Virus record (IMG/VR): IMGVR_UViG_3300017768_000052
Span: 1-29,184 of that record
DNA from: a virus
Strand: one strand, 5' to 3'
Length of the DNA stretch: 29,184 nucleotides
Shown: positions 1 to 28,984 of the stretch, piece after piece
Layout of the letters: every line of letters begins with the position of its first letter
How positions within the stretch are numbered: position 1 is the stretch's first letter
Notes under the pieces: generated by a model
What the model was told of the DNA's origin: nothing
Databases searched by the model: none
Seen by the model: only the letters and a program-made list of their open reading frames with translations
Program-made: the position numbers and the translations under genes

Positions 1-2455
1 ATGCTGGTAAGAATTTATTTATGTAAGCAGCTAAAGGTACACCAGACTCAGGCTTGTACTCTCTAATAAGGTCAAATATACCTCTTTTACCAGTTTCTAT
101 TTCATCAATAATTAACTGTTCGTCGTAACCAGGTACATCTCTAAATCTTCTAGCTATACGAGTTGTGATAGGCTTAAACGCTTCTAGTATGTCAAACAAA
201 CCTGCTTCACCTTGTTGTTCGTATACTTGTTGTACTTTATCAGATGCTTCTTTTGAGAACTGAGTAGTACCTTCTGCGTCTCGTCTACCTTCTACTAGTT
301 TACCTTTAGCACCTTCTGCAGCTACTTTTAGTATAGCTTTGTTTACTTTACCTTCTGATATACTTTTACTATAATCTTTTACAAAGTTAAAAACGTCTCT
401 ACCAGTGTCAAACTTCACTTGCTTTAATCCAGCGTTTTGTAGAAACCTTCTTATAGCATCACCAACCTTGGTCATTAATGTTTCATTGAACTGTAAAGAT
501 CCGTCTATAATAGACTCAGACATTATAGTTATAGTCTCTTCACCAAAGTTAGCATCTCTTTGTCCAGTTTTTGGATCTATGTAAGCGCTTATTCTATTTA
601 TAAAAGAATCTGAAACGCCACTAGTCTTATCGTTTACGTAAGTAACAAGAGCATCACCTAAAGCGTCTTGTATATTAGTATCTGCTCCAATGCTTTTGAA
701 AAGCACAGCGTGCAAAAACTCGTGAGCTGCAGTTCCAACAGCTGGTTTATCTTCGTTTAAAACAACTTCAAAGCTACCATCTCCAAACTGCTTTATAAAT
801 CCAAACTCTTGAGATGCCGCTTGGCCGTCAAACCCTTCTTCTTGCATGTTAGCTATTTGCTCAGCAGTCATGCGAGTGACTTTGCCTTGCTTACCTATTT
901 TAGAAAGTTCTTCAACCTGCTGTTCGACTACTTCAACTTGCTGTTCTGTTAACTGTTGAAGAGCTGTAGCGTTTATAGTTTCAATTTCTTCTGATAACTT
1001 TTTATCTTGATTGTTTAAAGCTCTAAAAGCATAACCAAACTCTTTATTAGTTATTTCACCATCTTTAACTTGTTGTTTTAAAGATGTTATATCAGAAGCT
1101 ACTTTGTCTTTTTGATCTATTATATTAATTAAAGACTGTCTTTGGTCTTCGTTTAATACATCGTTTATTTTTCTTTTCTCTGTTATATAAGTTTTTAAAT
1201 CTTGCTCAGCTTCTTGAATATCTAAAGCTATAGCATCTTTAACTTGCTTGTTTTTGGTTTGGTTTTTAGCGTAAGTTAAATCTGCTATTTTGTTTATTTT
1301 ATTGTTTACATCTCTAACACTAGCGTTATCACTTCTTATAGCTCTATTTACCGTGTTACCTGTAACGCTTATACCTGTAGATCCAAGAAAACCATTTAAA
1401 TAGCTTTCTAAACCTTTGTCGCTAAACAAGCCGTCAGCCATAGCTTTAGCTATTTCTACGCCGCTCTTACCTTCAGCAGCAGCCGTGTTGACTTCTTCTA
1501 TAGCGCTTTGACCAAGCTCTGTTAAACCTTCTTTATTACCAGTTAAGAATAATGTAGCTAACATAGTGCCTTTACCAGGTTGACCCATTATATAATTGCT
1601 TATGCCTTTAAACCCAGCGTACTCTAAACCACTAGCAACTATACCAAGTGTAGCCGGTACTGCAAACTCATCCTGTCCATTGGCTACTAGCTTATCAATA
1701 GCATCTGGATCATCCTCACCGTATACTTCTTTAGCTTTAGCAATGTTGTAATCAACGTACATTGGAGCTGTTATTTGTATAGGTAAAGAAGCTCCTCCGG
1801 TTAACATTGCTGGAACTATAGTTTCAACCATTGCTAAGTTGGCTCCAACAATACCACTGACGAAATCTGATGCGTCGGCTTGTTTTATACCAACTACTAT
1901 ACCTTCTCCAGTATCTTCATAAAGTTTTTGACTAGCTTCTAGCTCCTTAAATTTATCTACAATAAATTTATCTACTTCTGTACTTTGCGAAAACAAAGGG
2001 TCTACAGAAGCTATTTGCATTGCTTTTAATCCAAAAGCAGGTACGCTTTTAGTGAAAGTGTCTATAAGCCTTTGAGGCATGTTTATAAACTGATTACCAA
2101 CAGCTTCTTTGGTTTCTTGCTTTTCCTCTTTGTCTGTTACTAGATCTGTAATCATGTCAAAGATGTTTTCGGTAACCATACCTACTTGTTGACTAAACGG
2201 CGCTGATTCAAAAGCGGCTTGCTTAACTACAGCTTGAGTGTCAATTTTTGGTTGCTCCAAAGAAATATCTTCCGAGCTGGATGCCGTATCGCTTGTCGAC
2301 GTTACAGGGGCATCCTGCGTCGCAACGTCGCTTGTCTTTTCCACAAGACCTTGTTTTTTTAGAAAGTTGATATAAGTATCAACATCATAACCTTTCTCGT
2401 TAGCTTTGTTTTGTATATCTTCTAGGCTAACTGGATTACCATTTAATTCAAACAT
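1..2455 (-). CDS. Large internal virion/polyvalent-type protein with zincin metallopeptidase motif (C-terminus cut off by window edge)
   Basis: The reading frame stays open from an ATG at 2455 to the window edge, giving 818 complete codons without a stop. It starts with an ELNG segment common at the N-terminus of giant marine-phage virion proteins (recollection), then a Ser/Thr/Asp linker (residues about 39-66). Alanine- and glycine-rich hydrophobic stretches lie around 170-275, followed by Lys/Glu/Gln-rich helical, coiled-coil-like sequence to about 540. HEFLH at 578-582 is a zinc-binding HExxH motif; E639 or E640 could be the third ligand, as in gluzincins. The final residues (GVPLAAYINKFLP) match a motif I associate with phage polyvalent proteins. 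The gene starts 6 bases after the preceding stop, at the end of the ejection-protein block. I infer a protein packaged and injected with the DNA, with a protease domain. The length and the domains beyond residue 818 are unknown. Confidence 0.8.
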   Translation of the reverse strand, partial: MFELNGNPVSLEDIQNKANEKGYDVDTYINFLKKQGLVEKTSDVATQDAPVTSTSDTASSSEDISLEQPKIDTQAVVKQAAFESAPFSQQVGMVTENIFDMITDLVTDKEEKQETKEAVGNQFINMPQRLIDTFTKSVPAFGLKAMQIASVDPLFSQSTEVDKFIVDKFKELEASQKLYEDTGEGIVVGIKQADASDFVSGIVGANLAMVETIVPAMLTGGASLPIQITAPMYVDYNIAKAKEVYGEDDPDAIDKLVANGQDEFAVPATLGIVASGLEYAGFKGISNYIMGQPGKGTMLATLFLTGNKEGLTELGQSAIEEVNTAAAEGKSGVEIAKAMADGLFSDKGLESYLNGFLGSTGISVTGNTVNRAIRSDNASVRDVNNKINKIADLTYAKNQTKNKQVKDAIALDIQEAEQDLKTYITEKRKINDVLNEDQRQSLINIIDQKDKVASDITSLKQQVKDGEITNKEFGYAFRALNNQDKKLSEEIETINATALQQLTEQQVEVVEQQVEELSKIGKQGKVTRMTAEQIANMQEEGFDGQAASQEFGFIKQFGDGSFEVVLNEDKPAVGTAAHEFLHAVLFKSIGADTNIQDALGDALVTYVNDKTSGVSDSFINRISAYIDPKTGQRDANFGEETITIMSESIIDGSLQFNETLMTKVGDAIRRFLQNAGLKQVKFDTGRDVFNFVKDYSKSISEGKVNKAILKVAAEGAKGKLVEGRRDAEGTTQFSKEASDKVQQVYEQQGEAGLFDILEAFKPITTRIARRFRDVPGYDEQLIIDEIETGKRGIFDLIREYKPESGVPLAAYINKFLPA
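2271..2340. repeat. GC-rich linker segment with an in-frame 9-bp direct repeat
   Basis: Inside the large virion protein gene, a roughly 70-base stretch is much richer in G and C than its surroundings. The 9-mer tcgcttgtc occurs at 2289-2297 and 2328-2336, exactly 39 bases apart, so both copies encode Thr-Ser-Asp in the same frame (residues 41-43 and 54-56). The encoded peptide is a polar Ser/Thr/Asp/Ala linker between the N-terminal segment and the rest of the protein. The repeat is short and could be chance. Confidence 0.45.
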
Positions 2456-2461
2456 ATTCTA

Positions 2462-3859
2462 TTATTTTACGAGAGGGGTTGGGGTAGTTCTTAGTAAATT
2501 TGGATCACTCATATTAGGTAGTTCAAACTCTTCTTTTTTATCTTCACTTGTTGTTTGTAAAAACTTAGAGACAGTTGGATCTAGTTGAGCTAAATTAACT
2601 ATCGTTTGTTTATCTACAACCGCGGCATCAGGCAAAGGCTTTAGTGTTCCAGGATCGGCTTGGCTAAATCCGTTTTTGTTAGGCACGTAAACAGCTTTAC
2701 CTAACACAAACGCTTTGTTTTCGTTTAAACCTTCTACAATAGACATTTGAGCGTTGTACTGGTTAGGGTACATTTGTTGGAAAGTTTTAACACCACGTCC
2801 ACTACCACCTGGTTGATCAGTATTTCTCATGTTAGTGTCCATTAGCTTATCAAGTGTAAACTCTTTATAGTCGTTAAATAAATCGTACTCTCCAGACTTC
2901 ATGGCGTTTATTAACTCAACTTCTATAGCTGCGGCTACTTCTTCGGCATCTTCACTAGTTTTTATTTTAGGTATTTGAGCTGCTAGTTGTGGATATGCTT
3001 TTTCAAAACTTTTATCACTAGTTAGAAATGTTAAAAAATCATCTTTATATTGACCATCAAATATTATAGAACCTTTTTGATTAACGTCTTTTATACTATT
3101 AAATGTACCATTTACAGTTCTTTCTATTTTTTTATTTCTAGCATCTAAAGGTATATTTTGATTAGCTATTTTATAGACAGTATCATGTAAAGTCATGTTA
3201 ACGCTTGATTCAGCTTTTATATCGTGATTAGTTAAATCTTCAAGCTCATCTAGATATATAAGTCTATTACCTTGTTCTATTTCTTCAGTATTAGGATCGT
3301 CATCTATAGCCATAGGAAAAAAAGCGCGAGCATTTTCATCTATCTTTACTCTTTTCATGAATTCTTGATGATTATTTACCATGTAATCATACAAAACGGC
3401 TTGCATTGGATCATTAAAATTTGATCTTAGATCAACATTTTTTTTAACGTTGTTTAATGTTGTTCCAAGCTTAGTTAAACTGTCGTAGAGATCGTCTAAA
3501 CGCTTCTTAGCGTTGTTCATCATACCTCTACCACCTTCTTCGTCTCTCTTTTTTCTTTTAGGGTTTGTTGCTAACTTAGCACCTTCGTTGTACTCGTTAT
3601 ATATTTCGTCTATAACTTTTATTTGCTCTTCGCTCAAGTCTAAATCTGTAAAATCCTCAGGTGTATAATTTAAGTTTTTTTGAAGCTCTTTTTGAGATTT
3701 TACACTAGCTTCTTTTGCTTCTTTAAAACCTTTTATTATATCGCCTGCAGCGCCGATAATACTACTACCTAAAGCTTGAGCCCCAGCTTGTGTTACAAGA
3801 GGAGCGTTCATAGACCTATAGGCTTTAGCTACAGAATTTATTAAATTTACGTTTGCCAT
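2462..3859 (-). CDS. Putative internal virion (ejection/cargo) protein, 465 aa
   Basis: I do not recognise a named family. The N-terminus is Ala/Gly-rich and mildly hydrophobic (about 12-45), followed by a charged, probably helical region (46-130) with a Lys/Arg cluster near 100-107 and a glycine-rich GGRG stretch. The middle (150-350) is acidic and mixed; the C-terminus is Pro/Thr-rich. There is no signal peptide and no clear membrane segment. The gene sits between an Ala/Gln-rich putative ejection protein and the large metallopeptidase-bearing protein, with spacings of 13 and 6 bases. That position, after the tail genes, is where podoviruses and crAss-like phages often carry internal or cargo proteins. 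The start is preceded by an A/T-only leader. The role is inferred from position and composition only. Confidence 0.75.
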   Translation of the reverse strand: MANVNLINSVAKAYRSMNAPLVTQAGAQALGSSIIGAAGDIIKGFKEAKEASVKSQKELQKNLNYTPEDFTDLDLSEEQIKVIDEIYNEYNEGAKLATNPKRKKRDEEGGRGMMNNAKKRLDDLYDSLTKLGTTLNNVKKNVDLRSNFNDPMQAVLYDYMVNNHQEFMKRVKIDENARAFFPMAIDDDPNTEEIEQGNRLIYLDELEDLTNHDIKAESSVNMTLHDTVYKIANQNIPLDARNKKIERTVNGTFNSIKDVNQKGSIIFDGQYKDDFLTFLTSDKSFEKAYPQLAAQIPKIKTSEDAEEVAAAIEVELINAMKSGEYDLFNDYKEFTLDKLMDTNMRNTDQPGGSGRGVKTFQQMYPNQYNAQMSIVEGLNENKAFVLGKAVYVPNKNGFSQADPGTLKPLPDAAVVDKQTIVNLAQLDPTVSKFLQTTSEDKKEEFELPNMSDPNLLRTTPTPLVK

Positions 3860-3872
3860 TTTTTATTTTTTA

Positions 3873-4529
3873 TTAACTGCCTATAGCACTACCCGCAACA
3901 CTTCCAGCAGCGCCTATAACGCTACCTGCTAATCCCATCCACATTTGTGTGTTAGCTTGTCTAGCAGCTGTAGCAGCAGCTTTTCTTTCACCAGCCATAG
4001 CTAGTAATGTTTCTTGTCTTTGAGTAGCTCTATTATAAGCAGCTTCTTCACCCTGTTTTTGCATCATAAACTGTTGTTGTCTAGCACCCATTTGTCTTGT
4101 TTGAAGTGCGTCAGCGCCTTGGGCAGCTAGACGTTGATTAGCAGCCTCTTGTTGTCCTATACTAGCCGACGCTTGAGTAGCGCCTATTTGAGCTTGTCTA
4201 GCTAGGTTTGTAGCAAAAGAACCAAAACCACTGCCACCAGCAACAGCGGCTCCTTGAGCAGCAACATCACCTAGAGCCTGTCTAGCTGAATCTCTTTCAA
4301 ACTCTGCTTGTTGTTGATTTACAGTTAAGTCTTCGTATGGATTTACTAAGTTTTCAGAAAAATCTGGAGTATCTGCATATATATTACCAAGAGTACTAGC
4401 GCTTGAGTAAGCTCCCATTTGGCTTTGAAAATCTGCTTTAGCAGCTTTTTCTTCTCTTATTCTCTCTCTTCTTCTTCTGCCTTTAAAAGCTGAAGCTCTA
4501 TTTCTAAATACTTTTTCTCCTTTTGCCAT
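3873..4529 (-). CDS. Ala/Gln-rich internal virion protein, T7 gp14-like in architecture (218 aa)
   Basis: The N-terminus is strongly basic (an Arg/Lys cluster at about 10-30). A long Ala/Gln-rich helical segment spans about 70-190, and the C-terminus (196-218) is a hydrophobic Gly/Ala run containing AGSVIGAAGS. This layout of basic head, Ala/Gln helix and glycine-rich hydrophobic tail resembles small podovirus internal core or ejection proteins such as T7 gp14, which inserts into the outer membrane during DNA entry. I cannot show homology from the sequence alone. It is followed after 13 bases by the 465-residue protein and then by the large metallopeptidase-bearing protein, so the three may form one ejection set. 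Confidence 0.78.
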   Translation of the reverse strand: MAKGEKVFRNRASAFKGRRRRERIREEKAAKADFQSQMGAYSSASTLGNIYADTPDFSENLVNPYEDLTVNQQQAEFERDSARQALGDVAAQGAAVAGGSGFGSFATNLARQAQIGATQASASIGQQEAANQRLAAQGADALQTRQMGARQQQFMMQKQGEEAAYNRATQRQETLLAMAGERKAAATAARQANTQMWMGLAGSVIGAAGSVAGSAIGS

Positions 4530-8319: not shown

Positions 8320-11300
8320 TTATATGTTAGTATTGTTTACTGTTAATGGACTAGCAGAATTAAATGTAATACTAGCTTGTCCTACAGATATATTCACAAT
8401 TATTTCGTTATTTGCAACACTTGAAAGCTCGTCTATAGATCCCGTAGTGTAATCAATACCAAGATTAGTCAAGTTATTATTAGAAACTGTTATAGTAGGA
8501 TTTATATCGTAATTACTAATTGTAGGTAGATTACTGTTTATAACAACACTAGGATTACTAACTATATAACTAGAGCCTAAAAGTTGAACGCTTAAATCAA
8601 ATAAATGTATCAAACTATTCTGCGCAACACTTCCACTTATCTGATAAACAGACTGGCTAGTTGTTTGAGAAATTAAAGTTAACGCTACTTGAGCTTGATT
8701 ATTAAAAGTTATCTGTGGTACTTGATTACAGCCTTGATGATTTATAATAAGACTAGCTTCGTAAAGCAAAGATCCACCGTTAATAATACCGTTTATAGTT
8801 ATAGGTAAGTTTTGACTAGAGTCTATGTTAACAGGATTGTTCAGGACAATATCACCAACTACGGTGTTACTAGCTGTGTTAGAAGTGCCTGAGTCTGAAA
8901 ATAATACATAACCTGCAGGCCCAAAAGGAGAAACAGTAGCGCCAGTATCATCTAGTATAGTAGAATTACTTATGTCAGCTGTTAGATTCCCAGCAGCGAT
9001 AGTAAAATTATTATCAGGTGTTATTTCAATAGCGTTTAAAAAAGTTTGCTGTGGCGTTGTTGTTATGTTTATTAAAGCAGTTAAGAAGCTAGAGTTAAAA
9101 GTAACCGTGCAGTTTTGAGGTAAAGTTAATATAGGTGTTAAAATAAAACCTGCTGTTGGTAAGTTATCACCACTAGCGTTCTCTGCTAGATTACCTAAAC
9201 CCTGCATGCTAAACTCTGCAAAATCTAAATTATTTTCATTAGAACCACCATCTAAAGCGTTTACATGTACAGTTGTTTCTCCATGTATATAGTTAAACCA
9301 TTTGCCTTCTTTTTCAATAAACTCAGGAACACTACCAGTTTGTTTATCTGTAGATATTTCTTCTACATACCAGCCGTTTAAGTCGATAGAGTAATTATTG
9401 TAGTACTCGCCATCAGTTAAATTACCTACTATTTTAGCTTGAGTACCTTCGTAGCTTATTGTTCTAAAAGATTTAACTACTCCTGAAGCGTCGTTAAATA
9501 TAGAAGTTATAGTTGAATTAAACTGTTCTCCATAGAAATTATTAGCTAAATTAGTATAGCTAGGATCGTGATCGTATATCTCTCCTTTTTTAACAGTATA
9601 GTATTTGTTGTTAATACTAAAGCCAGCTTCAGGTATGAAAGATTTAAAGCTAACCCAACCGTCAGTAGGCTCGTTATAACTAACTGTGTATACTTTCTTT
9701 TTTGAATTTAAATTTACTAAATTATGTATTGTAACATTGTATTCTTCTCTACTATCGTCAAAGCTTCCAATTATAGCTTGAGTGTATTCTCCATCTGTAC
9801 CTATAGCCGTACTTAGATTATCGCTAAACCAATCACCCATACCTGCTTTAGATATTGGTGTTATGCCATCTCTAGAAAGTCTTAATATAGCGCCTTTACT
9901 TCTATCAGCAAAATAAATTCTATATTGATCAGAAGCAAAAGACTCAGGGTTTTGGCAGCCGTAGTCGGCTCCAAAGGGTATTGTTTGCCCAAGAACTCTA
10001 CTAGAAGCTAGAAGCTGAGCGTTGCCATCGGCGTTAAATAAAGCATCTTTACCACTAGATAGTATCTTTATTATTTTATTTTCACACAAAGCTATAACGT
10101 CATCCATAGAACCTATAGCATTTCTAGCGTGTAACTTAGTTATAGCTCCATATTCTGAATTTAAAGATTTTGTTATTTTATCAGCTAATATAAATTGATT
10201 TGTTTGATCTACGCCAGTTTTTTCATTATATATTTGAGAATATATTATATCGTGTTTTTTCTCTTCTTCTTTATAGCTGTCTAAAAACTTGTTAGCTTTA
10301 AATCCGCTTTGTTTACCTATAGCAGTATAAGGAAATAAAGTTCTAGCGTTAAAATCATCTCTAATTCTATCAGACTCCACGCCATTACCAAAAGAAATAC
10401 AATTATAAAAGTCATGACCAATACGCGTAGGTATATTATAGCCGTTGTAAGATACAGTATAAGGTTTTAAAAATATCTTATTTGTATTAACAACAATATC
10501 AGCCGCAAGCTCTGCGGTAACAAAACTTCCGTCTTTATTAGTAAATCTAACAAACGCTACTTTATCTTGATAATTATTTTGATTACTGGCTCTCAGTATA
10601 AACGCTTGAGCTACATTGGTGTTACAGGTAATAACACACATAGTTTTATGATCTAAGGTTGGAGCGTTTGGATTCGCCGTAGCACCGGAAGCTGGTTCTT
10701 TATGCCAACAACCATCTCCTAAGCCTAGTTGGAATATGCTAGCGCCTTGTATATCGCTAACCTTTAAAGAACTGTTAGCATCGTTAAACGTTTGCGCTTC
10801 ATTTGTAGGTGGACTAGTTTGACTTGCGTTAGTATCTTGCAAATCTATAGTTATAATAGCTTCTTTTTGAATAAATTGAGAAGCAGTTGTTTCACCAAGC
10901 TTTATAGGAAAAGAACTAGACATTTCCCAAAAAAATCCAAATTGATCTTCGTTTTCTTCTGTTATTTCAACAGTTTGAAAATCTGGTGCTACTTCAAAAA
11001 CAGCACCGCTTATAGCTGCTGTATCTGATTGCAGTGTTGGAGAAACAGATGTAAATATACTGTTTAAAGGATCATCTAGATATTCATTAAAATCATTATC
11101 TGCCTCTATCCTAACAAAGAATTTACTTTGAGAGTCTTGTCCTTGTATAGCTACGTTAACACCGCTAGAATCTAAAGCAGAAGAGTCTACTAAGTTTCCA
11201 TCAGCTCCGTTAGGTACTTCATTAGATATAGATAAAATTTTCCACTTAGCAGGAGATGTAACAGGCGTGTTTTCTCCATGTCTCTTTTTTAATGATAAAT

Positions 11301-14300
11301 AATCACCAACTTTAACTTTGTTAGCATCAGCAGAGTTAAAGCTTAACCAAGCATAAGCACCGTTGTCGTTGTTGTCGTAAGCTTTATGTAAAACTAAGTT
11401 GTAATATTCTGGAGCTATTTCTTTTATATAAAACTTGTACGTTTCCGCCCAAGAAGGAGCTTCGTTTAATACTCTAGTGTGTAATCTATTTAAATTAGAA
11501 CTTTGAGCTTTATCTAGCAACGTAGTACTGCTAAAATCTCCATCTTGATCTACTAAAACAGTAGACTCTCTTCCGTATTTATCACAAAAAACAACACCAA
11601 CTTCATAACTTCTTTCAGATTTTATAGACTTACTACCTTGAGAAATAGGTACATCTTCTTCGCTAGCAGGCGCAGATGTTACTGTAAACCTACTATGTCT
11701 TTTAGTTCCTTCAAGACCTATAGAGTCGTAAGCTTTGAAATAGTAAGCAGCGCTTGTAACGTCTGCTTCAAACCCATAGTTAGTCGCGTCAAGAGCTACC
11801 AAGCCGCCATTTAATAAACTATTGAACTCTTCGCCATCTCCTTCTTTTATTAAAAAATCAAAATCAAATCCAACATCAGTGTTGTCGTTTGCTGGAAATC
11901 TTTTTAAAGCAGCAGGAATAAATCCTAATCTACCTACAGGTAGACATTTTGAATTAGGATCATATTCTCCTCTAGTAGAATCATGAACCCAATCTAAACC
12001 TCCAGTTATAGGATTAATAGTTTCTGTTTGAGAGCTTGGATCAATATCTCCATAATAACTAACGTTTGAATTAAAGTTAGTAGTAAATTGTAAGCTACCA
12101 GTTTGCTTAACTAAATTACTAGAGTTTCCGCCTCCGGTAAACCAGTAGCCAGGACCTCCTTGACCATTCGATCCATTCCAAAAATAACTATTTCCAGTTC
12201 CATTACTATCGTATGTAGGATCACCAAATTCTTTTTGTCTAAACAAACCTCCTCTAGCAGCAGTTGATGTTCCACCAATAAATGTACCGCCAGCGAAAGG
12301 ATGCAAATTATAAGAAGTAGCGTCGAAACTAAATGGAACTTTAGTTGGAATATCTGTAAAATCCCAACATCTAAAAAACGCAGCTACTTTTTCTCCTTCG
12401 TTTAGATTTATAGCGCCAATATTACCAGTGTCTATTTCAGAGTAACAAACTGGAGGCCCTACGTAACTAGCGTATTGACCACCAGTATTATTTAATATCC
12501 AAAAGTGAGGGGCGAAAAGCGCACCACTAAAAACAGGTGTATCATCAAAGCCTATAGATATGTAGTTAGCTCCTGTAAGAAAGTTGGCGGCGTTAGTAGA
12601 TGTGCCATATTGATTTGCTGACATATCAAAGTTAGCTCCTGCAAATCTAAGTTCTGTATTAGTGTATTTATCGTTTAAAGAATCTTGTAAACTACTATCC
12701 CACTGTAAGTTAGCTGGTACACCTTGAAAATTTCTAGCATTAGCCGCTGTGATTGCTTGGTGACTTGCTAGATTTGGACTTCCATTGTTAACTATATCTT
12801 GGTAGTTAGCGCCGTAAGTATTACCTTGCTTTAAGTCATATAACTGATCAGGAATTATACTAGAAGAAGCCGGAGTACTATTTACAGTTTGAACTAAAGA
12901 GCTAGTTCTACCAGTAGGTATAGTTGGTTGACCGTTGTCGTCCACGTAATGTAACTGCAGCGCTCCAACAGCAGGCCTGTATATTGGAATATAAAAAAGA
13001 TTTAAAGGTTTTTCTTTTTCGTCAGTTATGGTTGAATGTAGAGGATTATTGTTATCATTACTACCAAGCAAAGTAGGTGCTGGTATGTAGCCGTGAGTGT
13101 AACAAGCTTTCCAAAGAAAACGCACGTTAAAGTTATAATTACCAGTAGCCTCAGCTTCGTAGAAGAAATGAGGATTAGATCCAGTTTCAATAGAAAAAGA
13201 ACTACCATAATCATATTCTTCTCTATTAAAAGGAATTTTAATTAACTTAGGAAGCTCTGATCCGTTTATAACGCCGTTTGCAAAAACTCCACCGTCTTGA
13301 GGCATTACGCCAACATTGCCTTGTGCGTCTTTAAAAGATGTTTCATCTGTTCCAGCTCCGTCTTGTAATGGCGCGTAATCTGTTATGTCAAATACCGAGC
13401 TAGCAGAAGGATATAAGTTAAATTCATTTACATTTGTAGTTCCAGCAATAGCGAAAGTATCACTACTAGTTATTCTAGGAGAAGCCCAGCCTGCAAGCTC
13501 AGTATGGTCATAAGATCTATTTAATCCTCCTACATAGTTGACATTATTAGTATTGTTAGCTGGATGTTGATATTGACCAGACTGACCATACTCTGGCGTT
13601 CCTGACAAACCAGTTCTATGAAAATTATATAAATCTAACCCTATATTGCAAAGATTAGTATCTTCATCGTAGAATATTGTTTGAGATGGAAACTCATCAG
13701 ACTCTATGTAGCTAACTAAATTTCCATATATGTTATTTCCAGCAGATGTTTTAATATCGTAGTTTTCAACATAATTACCATACATTATTCTATTAGCAAC
13801 AAACTCTTGTGCTTTTGCTTTTCTAGGTAAAACATCGTAAGTTCTATCTAGCTGATTAGTAGGTAAAACATTACCAAAAGCTTCAGCGTAAAGATTTAAT
13901 CTTCCTTTATCGTAAGGAGTAGCGTTACCAGCGTTGTATACAGTATTCCAATGTGTTCCAGAATAAGATGATATAGTGCTCAAAGAGTAGATGGCTGGAT
14001 AACTATCGTTTTCTCTATATAGTATTTCTACTTCAACAACGTCTTCAGGTATATCTTGAGTTATGAAGTCGTACAAAACTATAGAGTGAGCTCTATTTTC
14101 CATACCAGAATTTAAGCCCTTGTTAGCGTTCATAGAGTATCCACCAGGCTTAAAAGTTGGTATTGTATATGGAGATATAGAAGAGTATTCGTTATCTATA
14201 TATTTATATCTACTAGCAAAAGAAATAAATTTAGTTTCATAAAGCTTTTCTTTAGTAGCTAGAGTTGCTGTAAAGGTTGTTGGAGGTTGAGGCGCTGTAT

Positions 14301-15969
14301 AAGAGCTTGTAAAATTTAAAAATTCAACTTGAAATCCTCTATATTCATTTGATTGAGATCCAACTCCAGAATAAACTGTTAGTATTTTAACGTTACAACT
14401 TCCTATTGTAGAGCTTAGCTCTAGAACATCACCAATTTTAAAGTATGGTCTAATGTCTTGAGCTTGTATATAGAATATTTGTCCGGGCACAAACTCTGAA
14501 CCTACGGCTCCATTGTCTAAGGCAAAGTCTACAGTAGAAGATACACCTTGTATAATTTTCGTAACTGTAGTTGTGGTTATATTGCTATAATAATAACCTG
14601 TACCCGCTCCTGTAGTTGGATTAAGTATTTCTTCTGTAGCTACATCTGGATCTTGCCTTAAACCTCTAACGTCTACTCTTGGTGCTTTCTTAGGAGGTCT
14701 TTTTATTGCTGCTATATGCTCTTCTCTAGCATAGAAGTTAGTTATATCAGTTCTAAGCTCGTTATCTAGTAAAGAGTGATCTAAAAATCCACCCGCTAGT
14801 TTTTTAAATCTTTTTATATTTACTTTTTTAGGCTCAGTTCTACCATCTGTAAAAAATAAATAATCGTCAAACTTATTTATACCTGTTATTATATTTCCGT
14901 CTGGCGTTGAAGATGTATTTCCAACTGTTTCAACTCCAAACTCATCAAAAGTTACTTCTTTATCTTTTGAGCTATTTATAAAGTTCAACATCCTTGGAGC
15001 TGAGAAAACTAAAACAGCTCCGTCTAACATATTTTGAAAGCTATATACAGGTATATCAATCGCGCTATTAAGATTTTCTCTTTTTATAAGACTAACTTCT
15101 ACTATACCGTTATTAGCAGAACAGTTAGGAACATTTGTCACTATTACAGTGCTACCAGCCCAAAGATTACCTCCGTTAGGTAAGACGTTTCTAACTATCA
15201 TACCTTTTCGTATGCCGGCTGCTTTGTGAGTAATTGGTGCTCCAGGTTTAGATATTGATACGGTAGCTAATCCAGTTATAGTAGTTAAATCTTCTACTAA
15301 GTTTGCATGATTAATAGGATCTGACTGTATATCAACATCTGTAGCAGAGTCGTGCATAGGCATCTTAAATAAGTTACCTTGCTGAGGTAGTATTCTAGGA
15401 GCGTGTCTAGCTTCAAACACATCAACCACAACGTTTTTATAATTTCTAGTGGTATCTGATTCGTTTAAGTCTAGCTCAAATATAACATCTGACTTTATGC
15501 CTACTTTTCTATATAAGCCATTATATAAAAAACCAGAAGGAAACATAGAGCCAGTATTACCAGCCGCTGGTAGGTTAAACACGTTATATAAGGCTTGATC
15601 TATATTGTCATCATTATAAACATTGTTAGCTAAACTAACAAAGTTATAAACCTTATTATTGTTATCATCCGCGTGTAAACCTACTGTTTCAGCGTCATCA
15701 TGATAATTTTTCATTATAGAAAGATTATCAAGTATACTAGTGTTGTTTGGATTAAAAGTAAACCAATTATTAGTTTGTCCGCTTTGAGTTGTTAATATAG
15801 AAGTTACGGCTACATTACCATTTAAGTTCTGAGCGCTTCCAACATCCGCGTCTTCAGAAGTAGAAACTTGTATGTTTAATGCATCCCTGTAAGAGCCATT
15901 AGGTATAAGGCGTTCATCAAGGTCTTTATTCATTCGACCTTTAATAAAATTTCTTTTCAACTCCGCCAT
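8320..15969 (-). CDS. Giant tail muzzle/stabilisation-type protein (2549 aa)
   Basis: The N-terminus contains the KDLDERLIPNGSYRDALN motif (about 15-32) followed by NIQVSTSE, characteristic of phage stabilisation proteins (P22 gp10-like) that in crAss-like phages form the tail muzzle. Further family features are FDDYLFFTDGRTEPKKV at about 365-385 and the stretch DVIALCENKIIKILSSGKDA near 1960-1980. NPESFASDQYRIYFADRS with DGITPISK follow in what is probably a beta-propeller-like domain. From about residue 2260 to the end the sequence changes to Asn/Ser/Thr-rich strands resembling Ig-like modules, including LPITING, which recalls LPITVNG at the start of the next protein. At 7.6 kb this gene covers about a quarter of the window. 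It lies between the connector genes and the BACON-like protein. I infer the distal tail tube/muzzle with added adhesion modules. Confidence 0.85.
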   Translation of the reverse strand: MAELKRNFIKGRMNKDLDERLIPNGSYRDALNIQVSTSEDADVGSAQNLNGNVAVTSILTTQSGQTNNWFTFNPNNTSILDNLSIMKNYHDDAETVGLHADDNNNKVYNFVSLANNVYNDDNIDQALYNVFNLPAAGNTGSMFPSGFLYNGLYRKVGIKSDVIFELDLNESDTTRNYKNVVVDVFEARHAPRILPQQGNLFKMPMHDSATDVDIQSDPINHANLVEDLTTITGLATVSISKPGAPITHKAAGIRKGMIVRNVLPNGGNLWAGSTVIVTNVPNCSANNGIVEVSLIKRENLNSAIDIPVYSFQNMLDGAVLVFSAPRMLNFINSSKDKEVTFDEFGVETVGNTSSTPDGNIITGINKFDDYLFFTDGRTEPKKVNIKRFKKLAGGFLDHSLLDNELRTDITNFYAREEHIAAIKRPPKKAPRVDVRGLRQDPDVATEEILNPTTGAGTGYYYSNITTTTVTKIIQGVSSTVDFALDNGAVGSEFVPGQIFYIQAQDIRPYFKIGDVLELSSTIGSCNVKILTVYSGVGSQSNEYRGFQVEFLNFTSSYTAPQPPTTFTATLATKEKLYETKFISFASRYKYIDNEYSSISPYTIPTFKPGGYSMNANKGLNSGMENRAHSIVLYDFITQDIPEDVVEVEILYRENDSYPAIYSLSTISSYSGTHWNTVYNAGNATPYDKGRLNLYAEAFGNVLPTNQLDRTYDVLPRKAKAQEFVANRIMYGNYVENYDIKTSAGNNIYGNLVSYIESDEFPSQTIFYDEDTNLCNIGLDLYNFHRTGLSGTPEYGQSGQYQHPANNTNNVNYVGGLNRSYDHTELAGWASPRITSSDTFAIAGTTNVNEFNLYPSASSVFDITDYAPLQDGAGTDETSFKDAQGNVGVMPQDGGVFANGVINGSELPKLIKIPFNREEYDYGSSFSIETGSNPHFFYEAEATGNYNFNVRFLWKACYTHGYIPAPTLLGSNDNNNPLHSTITDEKEKPLNLFYIPIYRPAVGALQLHYVDDNGQPTIPTGRTSSLVQTVNSTPASSSIIPDQLYDLKQGNTYGANYQDIVNNGSPNLASHQAITAANARNFQGVPANLQWDSSLQDSLNDKYTNTELRFAGANFDMSANQYGTSTNAANFLTGANYISIGFDDTPVFSGALFAPHFWILNNTGGQYASYVGPPVCYSEIDTGNIGAINLNEGEKVAAFFRCWDFTDIPTKVPFSFDATSYNLHPFAGGTFIGGTSTAARGGLFRQKEFGDPTYDSNGTGNSYFWNGSNGQGGPGYWFTGGGNSSNLVKQTGSLQFTTNFNSNVSYYGDIDPSSQTETINPITGGLDWVHDSTRGEYDPNSKCLPVGRLGFIPAALKRFPANDNTDVGFDFDFLIKEGDGEEFNSLLNGGLVALDATNYGFEADVTSAAYYFKAYDSIGLEGTKRHSRFTVTSAPASEEDVPISQGSKSIKSERSYEVGVVFCDKYGRESTVLVDQDGDFSSTTLLDKAQSSNLNRLHTRVLNEAPSWAETYKFYIKEIAPEYYNLVLHKAYDNNDNGAYAWLSFNSADANKVKVGDYLSLKKRHGENTPVTSPAKWKILSISNEVPNGADGNLVDSSALDSSGVNVAIQGQDSQSKFFVRIEADNDFNEYLDDPLNSIFTSVSPTLQSDTAAISGAVFEVAPDFQTVEITEENEDQFGFFWEMSSSFPIKLGETTASQFIQKEAIITIDLQDTNASQTSPPTNEAQTFNDANSSLKVSDIQGASIFQLGLGDGCWHKEPASGATANPNAPTLDHKTMCVITCNTNVAQAFILRASNQNNYQDKVAFVRFTNKDGSFVTAELAADIVVNTNKIFLKPYTVSYNGYNIPTRIGHDFYNCISFGNGVESDRIRDDFNARTLFPYTAIGKQSGFKANKFLDSYKEEEKKHDIIYSQIYNEKTGVDQTNQFILADKITKSLNSEYGAITKLHARNAIGSMDDVIALCENKIIKILSSGKDALFNADGNAQLLASSRVLGQTIPFGADYGCQNPESFASDQYRIYFADRSKGAILRLSRDGITPISKAGMGDWFSDNLSTAIGTDGEYTQAIIGSFDDSREEYNVTIHNLVNLNSKKKVYTVSYNEPTDGWVSFKSFIPEAGFSINNKYYTVKKGEIYDHDPSYTNLANNFYGEQFNSTITSIFNDASGVVKSFRTISYEGTQAKIVGNLTDGEYYNNYSIDLNGWYVEEISTDKQTGSVPEFIEKEGKWFNYIHGETTVHVNALDGGSNENNLDFAEFSMQGLGNLAENASGDNLPTAGFILTPILTLPQNCTVTFNSSFLTALINITTTPQQTFLNAIEITPDNNFTIAAGNLTADISNSTILDDTGATVSPFGPAGYVLFSDSGTSNTASNTVVGDIVLNNPVNIDSSQNLPITINGIINGGSLLYEASLIINHQGCNQVPQITFNNQAQVALTLISQTTSQSVYQISGSVAQNSLIHLFDLSVQLLGSSYIVSNPSVVINSNLPTISNYDINPTITVSNNNLTNLGIDYTTGSIDELSSVANNEIIVNISVGQASITFNSASPLTVNNTNI

Positions 15970-27684: not shown

Positions 27685-27921
27685 TTATAAAGGATTAGTA
27701 ATAGACCCTGGCATAGAGTCTTTACATTTATCTTTTTGATCTTGTGTTAATCTATCGTAATAAGAGTCTGGTATACAAACTATATATTCATATCCTGAAA
27801 CTTGTATAACTTCAGAAGTAGTTGTTGTATTAGTAGAGCTGTTCGGATAATTAAAATAAGTATCCATGTCAGCTAATACGCTGCCGCAGTCTGATTGTGT
27901 TGAATAGTAAAACTTACTCAT
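27685..27921 (-). CDS. Hypothetical protein (78 aa)
   Basis: I do not recognise it. It is Ser/Thr/Tyr/Asp-rich with three cysteines (positions 12, 49 and 64), a Thr/Asn-rich stretch in the middle (SSTNTTTTS), and a strand VSGYEYIVCIP followed by a polar helix DRLTQDQKDKCKD. There is no signal peptide or membrane segment. Its ATG overlaps the stop of the LamG-like gene as TAATG, so it may be made in fixed ratio with that protein. Confidence 0.65.
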   Translation of the reverse strand: MSKFYYSTQSDCGSVLADMDTYFNYPNSSTNTTTTSEVIQVSGYEYIVCIPDSYYDRLTQDQKDKCKDSMPGSITNPL

Positions 27922-28649
27922 TATAGTCCGTTTCTTGTATTAATGTCATTTCTAACGTTGGTTAAAACATCTCCACTTAAAGTCTCGTTGAATATAACAA
28001 CTTCATATATATGACCGTCAGTATTGGCAGAGTTATTTCTTTGTGTTGCTATTTGATTTATAGTAATAGGCTTAGTAGGATCTGAAGCATTGCTTCCGCT
28101 AGCTGGACTAGCTGTAAAGTGATCACCATTAACAAATACTTCTACAGAATCTGTGTCTCTATTTACTTCGTATAAAAACTTCGTTCCTGTACTCACAGTC
28201 TTACCACTAGTGTAATCAAATATAACAGTTTCAGTTCCAGAGCTAGATTTGTGTCTATAACTATTAGCATCTGTAATTCTAATAAATTCACCACTGTTAC
28301 CAGTGTTACCAAGTATAGTTTCGTTTGTTAAATTGTCAAGCTCTAAAACCATGAATATATGAAATTCTCCTAAAACAATGTTTGAACTAAGATCAAGTCT
28401 ATCGTCAGAGCCATCAAAATCAGCACCACCATCAGCAGCGGCAGGTTGAAAGCTAGCAGTTGTTTGCCTAGCGTGATTATCATTACCTGACTTATCACTC
28501 CATTGAGAAACATCACTACCGTTTAATGTTAGATTATCAGACCCATTAGGTAGCCAAAGCTGTAAACCAATAGATGGTCCAATAGCTACTAGTGAAAAGC
28601 CAGAGTCTATATAATCTGGATGCGTTATGCTAGTTCCTAATCCTAACAT
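27921..28649 (-). CDS. LamG/concanavalin A-like lectin-fold protein (242 aa)
   Basis: From about residue 28 the sequence shows a LamG_3-type lectin/glucanase fold: GLQLWLPNGSD, SDVSQWSDKSGNDNHARQ, GADFDGSDDRLDLSS, then beta strands with FHIFMVLEL, a strand-turn VEVFVNGD, and HIYEVVIFNETLS near the end. Such domains bind glycans or serve as adhesion and decoration modules on phage virions. The start is set by the TAATG junction with the upstream gene at 28649. An upstream in-frame ATG at 28712 would add 21 residues rich in Trp and Phe, but that stretch lies inside the preceding gene. A virion decoration or adhesion role is inferred. Confidence 0.8.
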   Translation of the reverse strand: MLGLGTSITHPDYIDSGFSLVAIGPSIGLQLWLPNGSDNLTLNGSDVSQWSDKSGNDNHARQTTASFQPAAADGGADFDGSDDRLDLSSNIVLGEFHIFMVLELDNLTNETILGNTGNSGEFIRITDANSYRHKSSSGTETVIFDYTSGKTVSTGTKFLYEVNRDTDSVEVFVNGDHFTASPASGSNASDPTKPITINQIATQRNNSANTDGHIYEVVIFNETLSGDVLTNVRNDINTRNGL

Positions 28650-28984
28650 TAAAATCCAAAGTAAAAAATAACACCACCAGCTGTAGAAGTTGGAGGGGTA
28701 AAGCTTTTCCATCTTCCGTATATAGTCATGCCTTTTGGAAACTTAGTAGCAGCGTCTGTTTCTGCAGCACCACCACCGTTGTTAGCTACAGCTGTAGTAT
28801 GACTAAAGTAAGCTGTGTCTACAACGTCTGTGTCAGCTACTAAAGTAGATAATACTGTGTCTTCTAAAAACTGTATAGCTACTATAACTTTTCCAGTAGG
28901 AGGTGTTACCTCAACTGCTTCGTCACTAAAACCACTACCTAATTGACCAAAGCTATAAGCTACATCTGTCGAATTTAATCCCAT
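28649..28984 (-). CDS. Small probable virion structural protein (111 aa)
   Basis: A beta-rich protein beginning GLNSTDVAYSFGQLGSGFSD, with TGKVIVAIQFLEDT in the middle and FPKGMTIYGRWKSFTP near the end, finishing in a Gly/Phe-rich strand. The pattern of a hydrophobic strand, then GxTIYGRW, recurs in small phage structural proteins that I recall without a fixed name. The ATG at 28984 was chosen because it sits 4 bases after the preceding stop behind an A/T-rich leader; a start at 29029 would overlap the holin-like gene. The stop is joined as TAATG to the LamG-like gene. Confidence 0.72.
   Translation of the reverse strand: MGLNSTDVAYSFGQLGSGFSDEAVEVTPPTGKVIVAIQFLEDTVLSTLVADTDVVDTAYFSHTTAVANNGGGAAETDAATKFPKGMTIYGRWKSFTPPTSTAGGVIFYFGF

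Follow-up and report, generated by a model that had tools for sequence, protein, structure and literature searches.

The stretch of DNA that we analysed (the window) is an entire IMG/VR virus record of 29,184 bases, and all of its long genes lie on the minus strand. Read along that strand, they come in the order terminase, portal, a scaffold-like protein (a guess from its position), capsid protein, two ring-like proteins and a 2549-aa protein with a muzzle domain, followed by proteins of 1131 and 120 aa, by two putative ejection proteins of 218 and 465 aa, and finally by a giant ORF. The portal and the capsid protein have relatives in named phages whose hosts are Flavobacterium, Cellulophaga and Maribacter, and the virus appears to be a podovirus-like phage of Flavobacteriia with marine flavobacterial hosts. 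The coordinates are collected in Table 1. Two further observations may be recorded here. The 2549-aa protein, with its crassvirus-type domain, sits in a phage related to Pervagoviridae, and a 263-aa ORF upstream of the terminase (27921-28712) resembles LamG/concanavalin-like domains at a score under the Pfam cut-off (PF13385, E 3.2e-5).

Table 1. Features of the window that bear on the giant protein (positions in the window; aa, residues of the giant protein)
Feature	Position	Strand	Remarks
2549-aa protein, crassvirus muzzle C-terminal domain	8320..15969	-	Pfam PF25729, E 1.2e-7; relative precedes giant in 91/94 loci
218-aa ORF, putative small ejection protein	3873..4529	-	position as N4 gp52
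465-aa ORF, putative second ejection protein	2462..3859	-	position as N4 gp51; function proposed from position only
Giant ORF, 5' part, 818 codons	2..2455	-	starts with ATG, runs off contig end
N-terminal region, aa ~75-430, Gly/Ala-rich with hydrophobic stretches	1166..2233	-	proposed packaging/ejection domain
Zincin-like metallopeptidase domain, aa ~536-700	356..850	-	HExxH segment, E640 segment, TGxDVFNFVKDY motif
HEFLH, aa 578-582	710..724	-	H, E, H kept in 94/94 loci
E640, probable third zinc ligand	536..538	-	94/94 loci; invariant in alignment
Sigma-70 region-2-like domain, aa ~737-818	2..247	-	cut at its end by contig edge; matches regions 2.1-2.2

The giant ORF was described in the first-pass annotation, which did not give its strand, as a virion-type protein of at least 818 residues in one frame that follows two putative ejection proteins. 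The length is indeed 818 aa counted from the ATG, and since the contig ends inside the ORF, with nothing adjoining its open end, the protein is truncated. What the missing part may look like can be judged from relatives. With the window protein as query we found 15 loci, and with its zincin alignment many more; the 94 viral loci analysed include a few overlapping pieces of one contig, and 59 remain at <85% identity in the zincin region. The patterns of the wider scan were DVFNFVK and EE..T..SES. Complete ORFs in this family encode 1810-3238 aa, and one member also lies on a flavobacterial MAG contig. At the usual thresholds the window protein matches no model of Pfam, PHROGs or NCBIfam, and direct tblastn with the giant protein or with its sigma-like block (see below) gives no match in the named phages.

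The description as a virion-type protein is supported by gene order and by homology of the N-terminal region. The ORFs of 218 and 465 aa do precede the giant gene, and the arrangement of muzzle, small genes and giant recurs in 91 of the 94 loci. An ORF similar to the 218-aa one is recognised by tblastn in 18 of the 94. A profile of family residues 190-420 matches the syntenic giants of the named phages Panino (8e-19), elemo (8e-18), phi38:1 (9e-11) and phi46:3 (1.5e-10). The phi38:1 protein, gp101, has a counterpart in Cellulophaga phage phi40:1, likewise called gp101, and MS/MS is the evidence on which that protein is annotated as structural. (The annotation of phi38:1 cites phi18:1, which leads to an unrelated phage and was set aside; the MS/MS annotation stands in phi40:1.) Presence in the virion is thus supported, by homology, for the N-terminal architecture of the family, and by the same homology and the gene order the giant of this phage is probably packed and injected. 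Further along the chain phi38:1 gp101 (Pervagoviridae; 1691 aa) differs from ours, since it lacks HExxH and gives no significant match to the sigma-like block. As a side observation, the giant of the Maribacter phage Panino (L018:8229-13718) is annotated as 'tRNA methyltransferase'; it has the ejection-type N-terminal domain and no HExxH.

The motif that first drew attention to this protein, HEFLH, is located at residues 578-582 as reported. It is not a chance motif, because HExxH is found in all 94 homologous loci even though neither pattern of the wider scan contained it, and the H/E/H/E site is kept down to about 26% identity. In an alignment of 60 sequences H578, E579, H582, E640, D687 and F691 are invariant. 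The first-pass annotation had staked the metal site on the conservation of the three HExxH residues among homologues, and they never vary; it had left the third ligand between E639 and E640. E639 is nearly invariant, with Q or I in some members, and E640 never varies, so E640 is the candidate that we retain, although its count of 94 is slightly biased by its presence in one of the two search patterns. In our opinion, this conservation argues for a metallopeptidase with a complete active site, whose fold and activity are predicted. Among the PHROGs families that many members match are 'metallo-protease' and 'peptidase', with 14 and 9 of 60 members respectively, and no family is matched by more members than the former. 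Searches with the zincin region against Pfam and PDB sequences gave nothing useful, the one PDB match of the profile being a chance match to a ribosomal protein, which we rejected.

One of the closest parallels is the virion RNA polymerase (vRNAP) of phage N4, gp50 (Schitoviridae; PDB 9pnr and others). This giant, too, is injected, and its gene comes after those of two smaller ejection proteins; it contains a zincin, the C1 domain, the structure of which has been solved (PMC12633501). When the family profile was aligned by hhalign with 13 N4-type vRNAP zincin domains (A4), a probability of 81% and an E-value of 1.2e-5 were obtained with HExxH in register, and none of 200 column shuffles that kept HELVH reached the score; a smaller profile of 15 sequences (A1) gave a weaker result (16%, E 0.0016). 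If the alignment is forced to full length, the window's GRDVFNFVKDY region falls on GEDMFSNLLFN of N4. At this moderate probability, the domain appears homologous to N4 C1 in register and beyond the motif itself. Applied to the syntenic giants of the named phages, the zincin profile gave a weak match in the elemo giant (HEIFH) only. Two other occurrences deserve mention on their own account: the N4 zincin profile matches residues 420-564 of a 1337-aa internal virion protein (PDB 9sfn chain G, E 3.8e-8), which suggests that ejection proteins of a further class also have this zincin type, and in the Manatee Spring phage the syntenic protein, of 3859 aa (L023:741-12320), has two HEFGH motifs, possibly belonging to two separate zincin domains.

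Behind the zincin lies a second conserved block, which contains the stretch 'GVPLAAYINKFLP'. The stretch is present as the first-pass annotation stated, but we identify it differently: rather than being merely typical of polyvalent proteins, the block resembles region 2 of sigma-70 factors such as RpoS, RpoD and sigma-K. When a profile of 33 block sequences (A5) was compared with all PDB sequences, the five matches at E<=10 were all sigma factors (best 8e-4). By hhalign, the block aligns with 16 real sigma factors at E 8.9e-7, and no shuffle out of 100 reaches the score; taken separately, the 23 window-like sequences reach 5.1e-5 and the other ten 9.7e-5, again with 0 of 100 shuffles each. The best score against Pfam Sigma70_r2, 3.6e-5 in L070, amounts to 23.9 bits for a cut-off of 24, and sigma-factor families of PHROGs match 10 and 2 of the 33 block members. 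The position is also consistent: of the 91 homologues that could be tested, at least 65 have the block behind the zincin, and a control stretch lying another 700 aa along the chain gives no match; a small sigma HMM run on single giants scores weakly, yet its best four matches all lie 70-84 aa behind the zincin, unlike those of reversed controls. We therefore regard the block as sigma-70 region-2-like, a prediction made at the level of sequence profiles; it may bind RNA polymerase (RNAP). The D..Q residues of region 2.2 are visible in L070 and L122 and not obvious in the clade of the window, so this binding may be lost or altered here. Nor do we file the giant as a sigma factor, because region 4 was not found: Sigma70_r4 has no match inside any giant of 15 relatives, and none is evident by eye behind region 2. 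A further difference from sigma-70 factors is that the block is fused into a giant late protein.

The resemblance raises the question of what transcription genes these phages have otherwise. In the long relatives (L138-L152) one standalone ORF, of about 250 aa, encodes a divergent sigma-like protein (MKKYN..NYIRYK...DLIQ.G..GL). Among 15 records of long relatives, 14 have a region-2 match outside the giant and 14 a region-4 match in a standalone ORF; in the L070 record the region-2 match reported is the one inside the giant. We considered whether the block descends from the sigma factor that the phages themselves encode, and rejected this: all 33 sequences align with that factor in the right register but weakly (E 0.0047, 0 of 60 shuffles), and comparisons by subsets are not clearly above shuffles. 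A Rpb1-type RNAP is found in none of the 15 long relatives, records which may be incomplete, while the control is positive in all 14 genomes. A T7-type polymerase (PF00940) was unmatched in 15 relatives, the positive control being equally silent, and three full-length giants have no Pfam RNAP match. A crAss-type polymerase (DxDGD) was rejected as well, since there are just two isolated DFDGD near the N-terminus. N4 gp50 has a T7-type polymerase; none is recognised here, and a sigma-like block stands behind the zincin. Other domains were noticed in some of the giants. Those of L075 and L091 have a P-loop block (MVGGPGAGKTN...) inserted behind the zincin, which resembles small kinases of the zeta-toxin type. 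In the C-terminal half, or payload region, of the L002 giant there is a HAD-phosphatase-like pattern (STFDFDETLI ... VFVLTARM ... FVDDALPNV) that Pfam does not match, and the last 30-60 aa of the giants of L002, L003, L004, L009 and L016 hold at least one Cys/His cluster (C.....GGRCKNM....K..C..HD), like a small zinc-binding tail.

How might such a protein work? We propose that the virion probably carries the giant and delivers it into the cell behind the two smaller ejection proteins, much as N4 does with gp52, gp51 and gp50, and that the N-terminal domain of the giant would handle packaging or entry into the cell. The likeliest job of the zincin would be to cut the injected polypeptide, parting the delivery section from the remainder. 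The sigma-like module could then dock on the clamp of the host RNAP and favour transcription of early phage genes until the phage has made a sigma factor of its own, while clade-specific payloads would follow behind it. In this joint model, which to our mind is about evenly balanced between being right and wrong, the 818 aa would make up roughly the first third of a giant cargo protein of the polyvalent kind. Against the model it has to be said that the N4 vRNAP, zincin included, is packaged unprocessed (PMC5512222); that phi38:1 gp101, counterpart of the protein confirmed by mass spectrometry, has no HExxH or significant sigma-like match; and that the 2.2 residues of the window clade are as indistinct, and region 4 as elusive, as described above. 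A more specific version, which we hold to be unlikely, is that the virion brings along a sigma-like module synthesised in the host infected before, which a built-in zinc protease frees, so that the host RNAP would read the early genes at once. This would be a counterpart to the polymerase that N4 injects, with the host enzyme borrowed instead.

The same domains can be read in other ways. Once injected, the zincin may act as an effector and cleave a protein of the host, such as a sigma factor, a protein of its defences or a factor bound to RNAP, with the sigma-like block only aiming it at RNAP. The zincin does adjoin that block in most homologues, and effector zincins have been proposed for polyvalent proteins (PMC5512222); yet this order of domains suits self-processing too and the host target is hypothetical. 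In our estimate the effector is possible, if rather unlikely. The late-gene position beside virion genes would also fit a zincin that works while virions are assembled and is then spent. It would trim the giant, or other cargo, ahead of packaging or in the course of it, as has been suggested for DdrB of P1, a precedent discussed in PMC5512222. Such a role leaves the conserved sigma-like block unexplained, and N4 cargo with the homologous zincin is packaged uncut (PMC5512222); we find this role quite improbable. Finally, both folds might be structural cargo domains with neither a catalytic nor a transcriptional role, as N4 C1 itself might be: C1 has HExxH, the passages of PMC12633501 consulted report no protease activity for it, and in the clade of the window the residues for sigma contacts have degenerated. 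On the other side, all 94 loci keep the catalytic residue E579, which mere zinc binding could dispense with, and we consider a purely structural role decidedly improbable.

The first-pass annotation called the protein its strongest candidate for an undescribed system, which for the protease itself is not supported. No domain is commoner in polyvalent proteins than the zincin (PMC5512222), N4 vRNAP has one as well (PMC12633501), ejected polyvalent proteins with a zincin are a theme already in print, and self-processing, host-targeting and assembly roles were all proposed for such zincins before (PMC5512222). Our giants share the features of the polyvalent zincin-like MPTases described there, being large multidomain proteins encoded beside late virion genes, with HExxH and a later conserved glutamate; the difference is that the window protein escapes the three model collections searched. 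Only the sigma-like fusion is therefore offered as new. Iyer et al. 2017 (PMC5512222) nowhere use the word 'sigma', and no mention of a virion sigma factor was found among the open-access papers searched, subscription papers lying outside that search, so the transcription-factor-like part seems to be undescribed.

These proteins form a viral family that is common yet uncharacterised, and which can now be tied to the N4 model of ejection. How phages without an RNA polymerase of their own take over transcription in Bacteroidota is poorly known, and a sigma-like module next to a protease, in what is probably virion cargo, is a concrete and testable proposal of how they may do so.
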